Shown one piece after another: positions 43,923 to 49,172 of a stretch of 64,000 bases of DNA. Below the pieces are notes generated by a model. The model saw only the letters and a program-made list of their open reading frames with translations. It was not told the origin of the DNA and ran no database searches. Each line of letters begins with the position of its first letter. Position 1 is the first letter of the stretch. The stretch is from assembly GCF_001507535.1 (NCBI RefSeq), contig NZ_LQBN01000003.1, forward strand, positions 372,001 through 436,000. The letters run 5' to 3'. Both the position numbers and the translations under genes were made by a program. This DNA comes from Thiomicrospira sp. WB1 (GTDB taxonomy: Bacteria; Pseudomonadota; Gammaproteobacteria; Thiomicrospirales; Thiomicrospiraceae).

Positions 43923-43929
43923 TAATATT

Positions 43930-43952
43930 TGGTGGAGCTGGGGGGAATCGAC
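43930..43952 (-). other. Attachment site (att): ssrA 3' end at the left edge of the island
   Basis: Minus-strand sequence GTCGATTCCCCCCAGCTCCACCA (23 bases; key parts CGATTCCCCCC and AGCTCCACCA) matches the T-arm and acceptor end of tmRNA. Nothing like the rest of ssrA lies upstream (to the right), as expected when an element integrates into the 3' end and displaces the terminal segment. Confidence 0.75.
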
Positions 43953-44352: not shown

Positions 44353-44526
44353 TCAGCTTAGTGAATCTAGCCAGTCCTCAATTTCGGACTGTTTCCATCC
44401 AACCCTCCTAGCGGAAAGCCTTACTTGGCTAGGGAATTCGCCATTACTAATTCTTCGGTATATAGTTGCCTTTGATAATCCTGTTATTTCAACCAGTTGA
44501 CTAATTTTAAGTAATTTGATCATCAT
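44353..44526 (-). CDS. AlpA-family excisionase/regulator (57 residues)
   Basis: Small gene on the minus strand, ATG at 44526 (or 44523) with AAGGAG just upstream, stop TGA at 44353-44355. The translation begins MMIKLLKISQLVEITGLSKA and continues with TIYRRISNGEFPSQVRL and WKQSEIEDWL. That is the winged-helix pattern of AlpA/Xis-like proteins of P4-type elements, which regulate integrase excision. It fits the P4-type integrase at the other end of the island. Confidence 0.85.
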   Translation of the reverse strand: MMIKLLKISQLVEITGLSKATIYRRISNGEFPSQVRLSARRVGWKQSEIEDWLDSLS

Positions 44527-44860: not shown

Positions 44861-45907
44861 TTAAATGAGCAGGAAATTGTCAGTCACAAGGTTGTTGTTT
44901 GGGTGAGTGGTCCTGATGAACCAGGTGTTCGCTTTGGTTTTGAGCTTTGTCACCTTGCCAATACGAGCATTGTTGCTACGAAAGCGCTCATTAGCCCGTT
45001 CTTTCTTTTGATGAACTGTCAGAGCTTCTCTAAGAGCTGGGAACTTAAAAGACACTGTGAAGTAGAGAGTGTTCGTTTTAGTGCTTTTGCGTTGAGCTTC
45101 TTTGCAATAGATTCGTGGATGCGTTCCTAGGCTCCATAAAAGGGTCTGCACAATTTGCATGGTTGCTTGATCTGAAAAATGTAAATAACTCACCCCTAAA
45201 GTCCCTCGCTCAATATCACGAGGTTCAACCGAGCCGCTTGCGTCTACTAAACCAGCCAATAATGCCAGTCGCTCTTGAAAGGTGCTCTCAAAGAGATAAG
45301 TTTGAATGACTGGGCTGTCAAAGCGTTTATTCTCCAAAAAGTTAATTAATTCATCTTGGCCAGGGAGGTGAGATGGATCGATACGGATGCCTTTTTTAAA
45401 ACGTTCCGCTTTGATGGCGTAGCTTAAAATCAGCTTATCCAGGACAGTCTCGTTTAAATGTTTTAACCAAATACACCCATTTTCATACGTAGCGTTATTC
45501 ATAAAAACACCAAGAGCGTAGGGCGTGAGCTTATTTTCAAGAGAGCTCTCAGGTCCAAAATCCACTTTCGGGGCCATCAATGCGATTCGGTTCTTGTAAT
45601 AGGATTTTTCCTGCAGTTTCGCAATTTCGGCAACGGTGAGAATTTTTTCCCCTTGCCAGCGTGACGAATGGCAGCGAAGCAAATGGCTTTCACCCAAAAT
45701 GACAGACCGCTCAGTTAAGGCAGGGAATGAGTGGCGGCTTTTCGATTGAATCAGGTCCAGCTTATAAAGAACCTCTGGCCCTTGAAGTTTCTTGCTGATT
45801 AAGTGGTTTGGATTTTCATCTGGCGAGGCCAATCCCTCTCCAAGTTGTAATTCTGCTGGATCTTTCGCCTTTCCATCCAGCGTTAAGATTTTGAAATTTG
45901 AAGTCAT
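44861..45907 (-). CDS. Free-standing intein-like (Hint/LAGLIDADG) protein, degenerate
   Basis: 348 residues, AGGAGA before the ATG. The order of parts is that of an intein with nothing around it. Block A-like KILTLDGKAKDPAELQLGEG is at 6-25, block B-like LGESHLLRCH at 71-80 and a first LAGLIDADG-like helix LTPYALGVFMNNAT at 127-140 (catalytic Asp lost). A second, LALLAGLVDASGSV at 214-227, keeps its Asp. Block F-like NNNLVTDNFLLI ends the protein at 348, exactly where the His-Asn of an intein would come. The N-terminal Cys/Ser and C-terminal HN are missing, so splicing should be impossible. Likely a DNA-binding or former homing protein. Confidence 0.72.
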   Translation of the reverse strand: MTSNFKILTLDGKAKDPAELQLGEGLASPDENPNHLISKKLQGPEVLYKLDLIQSKSRHSFPALTERSVILGESHLLRCHSSRWQGEKILTVAEIAKLQEKSYYKNRIALMAPKVDFGPESSLENKLTPYALGVFMNNATYENGCIWLKHLNETVLDKLILSYAIKAERFKKGIRIDPSHLPGQDELINFLENKRFDSPVIQTYLFESTFQERLALLAGLVDASGSVEPRDIERGTLGVSYLHFSDQATMQIVQTLLWSLGTHPRIYCKEAQRKSTKTNTLYFTVSFKFPALREALTVHQKKERANERFRSNNARIGKVTKLKTKANTWFIRTTHPNNNLVTDNFLLI

Positions 45908-46079
45908 CGCTTTCTCCTGTTTTTTCTATAAGCACCCCCTTTTTCAGTTGATCTGGCGTTCTCGCCAGAGGGTTAAAAATTCAATTTCGATGATTTAATT
46001 CTATCCACAGCGCAAAATTTTTTTGAAACAAAGGCACCTTTTTTTACGTAATTAAATTTTTTTTGAAATTGGTGTAGGA

Positions 46080-46121
46080 GGGCAAGAAGGCGGCCCCCTT
46101 AAAGGGCCCGCCTTCTTGCCC
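46080..46121. repeat. Strong 14-bp perfect hairpin upstream of the RepA-like gene
   Basis: GGGCAAGAAGGCGG (46080-46093) and CCGCCTTCTTGCCC (46108-46121) are perfectly complementary with a 14-base loop that itself partly pairs (CCCTT/AAGGG). No T run follows. It stands in an otherwise A+T-rich 537-bp gap (45,908-46,444) and could be an origin element, an attenuator or a bidirectional terminator. Confidence 0.6.
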
Positions 46122-46444
46122 CCTTACCCCCAAATCACAAAACGATGATATCCCGACCTCAAAAAGCTTGTGAAAACAAACCACCCTAATTTTGACGGTT
46201 TAATTAATTTTCAACGCTACGGTGATTGATTCAAACCACCAGAAACGGCATGAGCACTGAGTTTGACCTAGATCCTTTTCCTTGGCCAAGGAGAAAAAAA
46301 CTGTCGATTTCTTAAAAATTGGCAAAAAACTATTAATCACGCAAAAAAAGCGCTGTTTGTTTTATTTTTCGATTCAAAACTCGAGCACAATTTCAAATGT
46401 GTGGCGACGTTGCCATGATCCATTTAAAAAAAGAGGAGAAAAAA

Positions 46445-47422
46445 ATGGGAAAAGTTAAAGAACTTTGGATAAGACTATTTCGGAAATTTGCTCCAGAAGA
46501 GCTTATTTTTGACATTCCACAAGAACGTGAAATGCTAGTTTCAGGCACAGTGCCGAGTGATGGGGTTGGCGCCTTATTGGGTGTCAGTTATGCAGGAAAA
46601 ACCACTGTAAGTCTGAATTTAGCTCATTGTGTATCAAGTGGTGCTAATACGTTTCTTGGCAAGTCGATTAATTATCATGGCGACTGTCTTTATATTTCTG
46701 GAGAAGGTTTATCAAAGGCAATTAAGGATTTCAACATCTACAAAGCCATGACACCATCCAAGCATCAGATTTTCTTTTATAAACCTGAGAACAAAACCTT
46801 GCATGATCCACAAACTGTGGATGAGATCATTAACCAGTTTAAAGGGATTCGTTTTGAACTCATCGTAATCGACACGATGCAATCTTGCTCGCTTGGTGCA
46901 AATGAAAACAGCAACGATGACTCTACAGCATTCGCTGAAAATGCTGACAGGCTCAGGGAAGAATTGGGTGGGACAGTTCTAATAACTCACCACATAGGTA
47001 AGAACGACGCCAAAAAAAATGAAATAATCCCTCGAGGTGGAACGGGGCTTACCGATCGAGCTGACTTTACGTTGGGGTTGTTAAAAGACAAAGACGATGA
47101 AAACAAGCGATTGCTGGTTTCACCTAAAAGTCGCAATCAGCCGGTTGATGAAGAAACGGAGTTTTGGCTAACGAACCACGAAGTCTATTTGGAAATCCAA
47201 CACCCTTTGAAAAAAATCAAACGTACAATTGATTCGAGCATAACAATTCCTCGTTCTTTTGAAGAATATGAGCATTTCAAAAATGTAGGGCGCTTTGATT
47301 TTTCGAAAGATACTCCGTGTCATCACCCGAACAAGCTAAAAGCGACAGCCGAAGGGCAGGATCAGGAAAAAGAATTAAGCCCGAATCGCTCTGTGCACCT
47401 TGTTGACAATAGTGCGGCTTAA
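46445..47422 (+). CDS. RepA-like AAA ATPase (plasmid-type replicative helicase family)
   Basis: 325 residues from the ATG at 46445, which follows AGAGGAG; an earlier ATG at 46397 lacks one. RecA-like core: Walker A GVSYAGKTT at 46-54, ISGEG at 85-89, Walker B-like IVIDTMQ at 140-146, then THHIGKN and RGGTGLTDRAD. This is the pattern of RSF1010 RepA-type and AAA_25 proteins common in mobile elements. A basic, poorly conserved tail follows. It may drive replication of the excised element. Confidence 0.8.
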   Translation: MGKVKELWIRLFRKFAPEELIFDIPQEREMLVSGTVPSDGVGALLGVSYAGKTTVSLNLAHCVSSGANTFLGKSINYHGDCLYISGEGLSKAIKDFNIYKAMTPSKHQIFFYKPENKTLHDPQTVDEIINQFKGIRFELIVIDTMQSCSLGANENSNDDSTAFAENADRLREELGGTVLITHHIGKNDAKKNEIIPRGGTGLTDRADFTLGLLKDKDDENKRLLVSPKSRNQPVDEETEFWLTNHEVYLEIQHPLKKIKRTIDSSITIPRSFEEYEHFKNVGRFDFSKDTPCHHPNKLKATAEGQDQEKELSPNRSVHLVDNSAA

Positions 47423-48297: not shown

Positions 48298-48478
48298 CCC
48301 GTCCCAGAAAAACCAGCGAAGGAATCTTCCATTCCAATGAACCAGGCCCCATCAAACATCCCCAAAAGGCTTTGTAATTCAGTTGACGATGGAATACAAG
48401 GAGCCCCGTTTTTTTAGGCCTGTGGATCGCCCTGAGACGATAGTTCTGATTTTTGAAATAATTCTACATTAATTATCT

Positions 48479-48696
48479 ATATGTAGAATTTTTGCAAAAA
48501 TTCTACCACTTAAAGAATGCACACGACTTTTCCCTTATATATGTAGAATTTTTTGAAAAAAATCGCCCTCTTCGGGCGTGTTTGGCGAATTCCTTAGTAT
48601 ATGTAGAATTTTTTTCCAAATTTCATCTGTAACAGGATTCAACCAAAGCACTGGCGAAACCCCTTAGTATATGTAGAAAGTTTTGAAAAAACTGAA
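48479..48696 (+). repeat. Four ATATGTAGAA direct repeats at 60-70 bp steps
   Basis: The core ATGTAGAA starts at 48481, 48541, 48601 and 48671 (steps 60, 60 and 70). Copies 2-4 share the preceding TTA(G)TAT and most have a following T-run with GAAAAA. The first copy is also part of an inverted pair: GTAGAATTTTTGCAAAAATTCTAC (centre 48495). A further inverted copy, ATTCTACAT, lies at 48461-48469. The region lacks genes. Iterons or operators are the natural suggestions. Confidence 0.7.
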
Positions 48697-48739: not shown

Positions 48740-48863
48740 TGCTTAAGCAGCGAATTAAGAAAACCGTAACAGAATTCGAGCACCTTGATTCGCATTTTGG
48801 GGCAGGCCTTTCCTCCCTTTTGGCCTGCTCACTTTTTTCCAGTTTCTTCCGATGTGCAAAAAC

Positions 48864-48969
48864 GTGCATATATGCACACTTATGCACGCATCTTCTTCAG
48901 ATTTCCAGATTTTCCGCAAATTCAGACACAGGGTGTGCATAAATGCACAGATATGCACGTTTATGCACA
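48864..48969. repeat. Helically phased ATGCAC array
   Basis: ATGCAC occurs at 48872 and 48882, then at 48943, 48953 and 48963, each 10 bp apart inside its cluster. Each cluster opens with a 14-bp palindrome-like GTGCATAtATGCAC or GTGCATAaATGCAC (48864-48877; 48935-48948). Regular one-turn spacing suggests cooperative protein binding on one DNA face. Confidence 0.7.
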
Positions 48970-49172
48970 CTTTGCCTGAATGGCCATGTTTTCCCTGACT
49001 TCAAAGCGCAACGTTTTGTCCGATCGGCTGTGTTGGATGGGGTCAAAGGCCCAGTCATATAACCCAAGACGGCCCCTAGGACCCTGAATATCGCCTCTAA
49101 AGCGCCTATGAGGAGCTTTTTCCTGCCTCTTTGGCATTTATTTTCAACAAAATCGCCTTTTTCTGCTCTCAG

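Follow-up and report, generated by a model that had tools for sequence, protein, structure and literature searches.

The window that we analyzed, a stretch of 64,000 nucleotides from Thiomicrospira sp. WB1, contains on its reverse strand an open reading frame (ORF; 44861..45907) whose product is very likely an extein-free, catalytically dead derivative of a class 3 intein. The best explanation we can offer for the finding as a whole is that a domesticated intein has been reused as a DNA-binding regulator of the ssrA island in which it lies; such regulatory recruitment is plausible, but we would put it at somewhat less than an even bet.

The assignment of the 348-residue product as a free-standing, class 3 intein-derived protein is supported by blastp, profile search, alignment and structure modeling. 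The gene has its own start and stop instead of being in frame within a host protein, and a ribosome-binding site, AGGAG, can be read on the same strand (45914..45918), 6 nt before the ATG. Across the same interval the remaining five frames hold 18-26 stops, compared with none in the 348 codons of the ORF, so the open frame is not an effect of composition. The ORF ends at the position of the former C-terminal splice junction, and its start lies a few residues at most from the N-terminal junction. We also considered whether extein fragments survive beside the gene and rejected the idea, since tblastn searches of the surroundings for extein similarity gave nothing above chance (best E 0.04). Thus, the original prediction of a complete intein order in a separate 348-residue protein with a ribosome site is borne out, and the homology goes beyond chance.

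Descent from class 3 inteins is most evident when the protein is compared with in-frame inteins directly. A profile of 62 such relatives, from which the query was left out, matched query residues 4-346 with an E-value of 5e-24 (per million sequences), and blastp against in-frame phage inteins gave E-values from 3e-15 to 7e-6. None of the curated family collections gives the protein a name: Pfam LAGLIDADG_3 matched at 5e-4, under Pfam's own cut-off, the Hom_end match was likewise sub-threshold, PHROG returned a single chance-level match, and there was no match in NCBIfam or PADLOC. A relation to Hint and LAGLIDADG proteins, which the original prediction had proposed to check by profile search, is therefore present, with the intein profile giving the stronger match and LAGLIDADG_3 the sub-threshold one. 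Class 3 inteins are defined by a Trp-Cys-Thr signature (PMC3196547, PMC7664689). The close relatives of the ORF protein carry this signature, lack an N-terminal Cys/Ser and begin with Ala or other residues. The full-length match, the absence of an N-terminal nucleophile and the retention of the block B histidine (His75, position B:10; 45683-45685) together place the protein in the class 3 lineage by descent. The first Cys/Ser had been counted among the lost residues; because the relatives are class 3 inteins, which have no N-terminal Cys, there was nothing to lose.

All relatives that we inspected reside inside long host frames, and the ORF product alone is free-standing. A tblastn search of phage sequences returned 218 records, and in 105 a single place spans 80% or more of the query; the usual annotations are helicase, terminase or intein-containing protein. 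In 16 phage records that we read closely, a large ORF surrounds the match, which in most cases starts directly past the GK of the Walker A motif and ends with THN followed by T/S. A profile search yielded 37 viral and 53 bacterial loci; the match is inside a long open frame in every locus and the THN-T/S junction is present in nearly all. The insertion site of the relatives is thus the point between GK and T/S in the Walker A motif of phage and bacterial ATPases. Matches were found in 37 of 369 genomes of the class and in 18 of 398 genomes of the phylum, the window's own genome included in both counts, and the frames are at least 633 residues long except for the 354-residue frame of the window itself; since profile searches lean on motifs partly lost in the query, equally degenerate free-standing relatives could be missed by them. 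Our searches of genomes from the order and class revealed no orthologue, single-sequence scans of viral and genome contigs revealed no relative, and no other class 3 intein turned up in the genome of Thiomicrospira sp. WB1. One of the 16 closely read phage records deserves a separate remark: in Salmonella phage vB_SalM_SA002 (L008:2900-3000), the helicase that bears the class 3 intein is split into two annotated CDSs, and at the DNA level the frame seems to shift close to where the intein begins, perhaps through a sequencing error.

The alignment and the structural model divide the protein into the N-terminal part of the Hint (splicing) domain (residues 1-118; 45554..45907), a LAGLIDADG domain (residues about 119-310; 44978..45553), also indicated by Pfam and by structure matches, and the C-terminal part of the Hint domain, defined by alignment (residues 311-348; 44864..44977), all on the reverse strand, as are the codons given below. 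According to the alignment, every residue of the class 3 signature has been replaced. The tryptophan at B:12 has become L77 (45677-45679), the cysteine at F:4 has become F330 (44918-44920) and the threonine at G:5 has become I348, whereas W, C and T are present in 33/33 relatives. The terminal His-Asn, noted earlier as missing, is replaced exactly by the stop, which stands in place of the His codon (44861-44863), and thus no His-Asn followed by a C-extein nucleophile is present. The nuclease has fared no better. It had been noted that one LAGLIDADG acid is changed to Asn, and this is correct for N138 in FMNNAT (45494-45496), but both acids are gone, the second having become S224 in LVDASG (45236-45238). 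Consequently, neither motif ends in the acid typical of an active LAGLIDADG homing endonuclease. In addition, the block D lysine is replaced with P199 (45311-45313). The LAGLIDADG acids and the block D lysine serve in catalysis in PI-SceI, and in the relatives of the ORF protein these positions are 97-100% conserved (97% for the lysine). With the splicing triad, His-Asn, the nuclease acids and the block D lysine all lost, neither splicing nor cutting is expected; judging by its sequence, the ORF protein should do neither. That it might nevertheless still function as a stand-alone homing endonuclease, by way of an altered active site, or as a nickase, is very improbable given these replacements, even though the LAGLIDADG architecture is kept and the free-standing yeast proteins HO and WHO do cut DNA (PMC7282813).

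The losses extend beyond catalytic residues. Among 33 relatives that share less than 60% identity with one another, 54 columns reach at least 80% conservation; the query keeps 24/54 and the relatives 38 to 54 of about 55. Glycines and hydrophobic core positions, several structural glycines and leucines included, often persist in the query. The fewest conserved columns among the relatives (38/55) are found in the TerL intein of Aeromonas phage D3 (L015:649-1653), an in-frame intein with a decaying nuclease, in which the splicing residues are kept and the first LAGLIDADG motif is degenerate (FTAGD).

An AlphaFold2 model of the protein, computed from an alignment of 40 rows taken from the window and fetched loci, has a mean pLDDT of 91 and a pTM of 0.89, although the model follows its alignment, would not reveal a destabilized protein and is no proof of stability. 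VIA-align matches the model to PI-SceI with DNA (Z 26.8, 328 residues, 3.1 A), class 3 DnaB inteins (Z about 15), I-Tsp061I (Z 13.8) and WhiA (Z 11.6-11.7); Foldseek agrees with these matches. The modeled fold, together with the PI-SceI and I-Tsp061I matches, indicates a two-motif LAGLIDADG domain.

Does the gene represent a functional protein or a relic? The main rival to recruitment, and a possible one, is a late-stage intein pseudogene, in which the host gene has been deleted, the insert has stayed open by chance and its residues are decaying without function. A published precedent exists: Arth_1007, a class 3 intein with 66 extein residues, lacks Cys F:4 and His B:10 and is unable to splice (PMC3196547). 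Several of our observations point the same way. The query retains only 24/54 conserved columns, fewer than any relative (38/55 or more), which counts against recruitment and also fits relaxed constraint; its end branch is long, at 3.17 changes per column where the median is 0.68; and no orthologue emerged from the genomes and contigs searched. In the tree, the query is nearest by path to DnaB inteins, its placement being unsure. On the other hand, 348 codons have, despite the long branch, remained without a stop or frameshift, the start is clean and preceded by a ribosome-binding site, both ends coincide with the former splice junctions, no extein remnant was detected nearby and the predicted fold is intact. 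Neutral simulation on the ORF's own codons likewise disfavors a pseudogene. At 0.05 substitutions per site, the frame stayed free of stops with a chance of 0.13, and from 0.2 upward with a chance of 0.001 or less. Loss of W and C in a stop-free frame had a joint chance that never exceeded about 1.5e-3, whatever the divergence, and for five catalytic sites the figure was about 2e-5. These values are a guide rather than a test, as they concern the features for which the finding was chosen, and some divergence may have arisen before the host protein was lost. The nuclease could also have decayed earlier, under selection for splicing, which would leave the two-residue figure of about 1.5e-3. Taken together, the intact frame and the catalytic losses are not readily explained by neutral decay. 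The intact frame similarly weakens the case for a decayed homing endonuclease, the alternative named in the original prediction.

The gene lies in an island of about 21 kb integrated into the 3′ end of ssrA (tmRNA; 43929-64000 of the window plus L121:1-1931). The left attachment repeat (43929..43946) matches the 3′ end of ssrA at all 18 nt; the right-hand copy lies just past the window (L121:1914-1931), and ssrA and a tyrosine integrase (L121:405-1613) lie at and just past the window end. Hence the earlier view of a splicing-dead intein relative in an integrative element holds, with homology, fold, the lost class 3 set and an island bounded by integrase and ssrA all in agreement. Downstream of the intein ORF and on the same strand is the gene for an AlpA-type excisionase/regulator (44353..44526; Pfam Phage_AlpA, 1e-17), and divergent from the intein ORF is the gene for a RepA-like AAA_25 helicase (46397..47422, forward strand). 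On the excised circle the intein ORF, alpA, att and int would share one strand, with repA divergent. The other island genes encode a KfrA_N protein, HsdM-HsdS-HsdR, a resolvase, an AbiZ/DUF6161 protein and a ThsB-TIR protein with a small PDC-M50A-like partner. The type I restriction-modification system, the ThsB-TIR protein with its partner and AbiZ/DUF6161 make this a defence island. Upstream of the KfrA_N gene there are two sets of spaced short repeats (48470-48684 and 48852-48972), ATATGTAGAATTTTT occurring four times at 60-70-nt steps and palindromic repeats resembling TGCATATATGCAC; they are possible replication or partition sites. The island integrase has one relative at 41% within the genus. 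For the neighboring RepA, by which we sought to learn what stands at this place in sister islands, we found no close relatives, and a search of 62 genomes of the order returned none. An Rfam search of the island returned nothing.

A DNA-binding or regulatory role is suggested by the position of the gene and its retained fold. In staphylococcal islands, the Stl gene holds the same arrangement, and by analogy a gene divergent from repA and co-oriented with alpA and the circle's int would occupy the place of a Stl-type regulator. Stl is the master repressor of those islands (PMC6695447). Among the island proteins scanned, we found no CI-like, Stl-like or other phage-type repressor. The candidate operator is the divergent intergenic region between the intein ORF and repA (45908..46396), which holds an inverted repeat (46059-46142) with 42-nt arms that are 79% complementary, an RNA fold z of -7.2 and no second copy in the genome. 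We propose that an ancestral class 3 intein with a LAGLIDADG domain lost its host protein and became a gene of its own, and that its LAGLIDADG saddle may still bind DNA. Acting from the intergenic region, the protein might regulate the island, setting the balance between its excision module (alpA, int) and its replication module (repA).

Two other roles can be envisaged from the same surroundings. As a target-site occupier, the dead LAGLIDADG protein would bind Walker A coding DNA at the GK-T point, for example in repA, and block homing by active class 3 inteins. Relatives do occupy such sites in many ATPases, and the adjoining repA site is uninterrupted (the insertion point would be after 46600); yet the genome contains no other class 3 intein that we could find and the large inverted repeat nearby is unlike the repA site, making this role improbable. 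When tried as a copy of the repA homing site, the repeat gave a best match of 7/16, a value reached by all shuffles. Alternatively, the protein might have a structural or protein-binding role without DNA, for instance as a partner of RepA or the integrase. The gene adjoins repA and alpA, the model retains the Hint fold and nothing specific speaks against such a role, which we nonetheless regard as unlikely.

An intein that is free of exteins and has lost both activities, yet keeps its frame and predicted fold, would show that in bacteria the entire Hint-LAGLIDADG body can be taken over for a new task. In the usual view, inteins survive by homing and splicing, and a decayed insert at a dispensable site should disappear. 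The ORF also offers a single-gene system in which recruitment could be addressed by binding and reporter assays. Our search of open-access papers for free-standing or extein-less bacterial inteins returned nothing relevant, which does not imply their absence.

How does the ORF protein compare with known systems? With its relatives, the class 3 inteins at the Walker A of DnaB, TerL, SNF2 and other ATPases of phages, Streptomyces and others, it shares full-length homology, the order of Hint and LAGLIDADG domains, the block B His and the lack of an N-terminal Cys/Ser; unlike it, they are in frame with exteins, end with THN then T/S, keep W, C and T and retain nearly all nuclease acids. The Arthrobacter FB24 pseudogene Arth_1007 also belongs to the class 3 lineage, has almost no extein and has lost splicing residues; however, it has short exteins, lacks His B:10 and keeps Asp123 and Asp219 (PMC3196547), whereas the ORF protein has no extein, keeps His B:10 and has lost the nuclease acids. 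The yeast proteins HO and WHO are stand-alone, intein-derived, free of exteins and non-splicing (PMC7282813), and the ORF protein shares these traits, its lack of splicing being predicted here. Unlike it, they resemble the VDE intein, cut DNA and possess a C-terminal zinc finger (PMC7282813); the ORF protein ends at the Hint domain. Like WhiA/DUF199, it is bacterial and combines the LAGLIDADG fold with the absence of catalytic residues. WhiA binds DNA mostly via an added helix-turn-helix (HTH) and is without a Hint domain. The ORF protein has no C-terminal HTH and no Pfam HTH match, and since WhiA relies mainly on this absent element, the comparison counts against a DNA-binding reading. Still, WhiA is a LAGLIDADG-derived transcription factor that has lost catalysis (PMC3781837), and together with HO and WHO it offers a precedent for recruitment. 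We suggest, while allowing that the odds are slightly against it, that an extein-free class 3 intein, dead in both splicing and nuclease activity, regulates a mobile defence island and represents a prokaryotic counterpart of HO in its origin and of WhiA in its fate.
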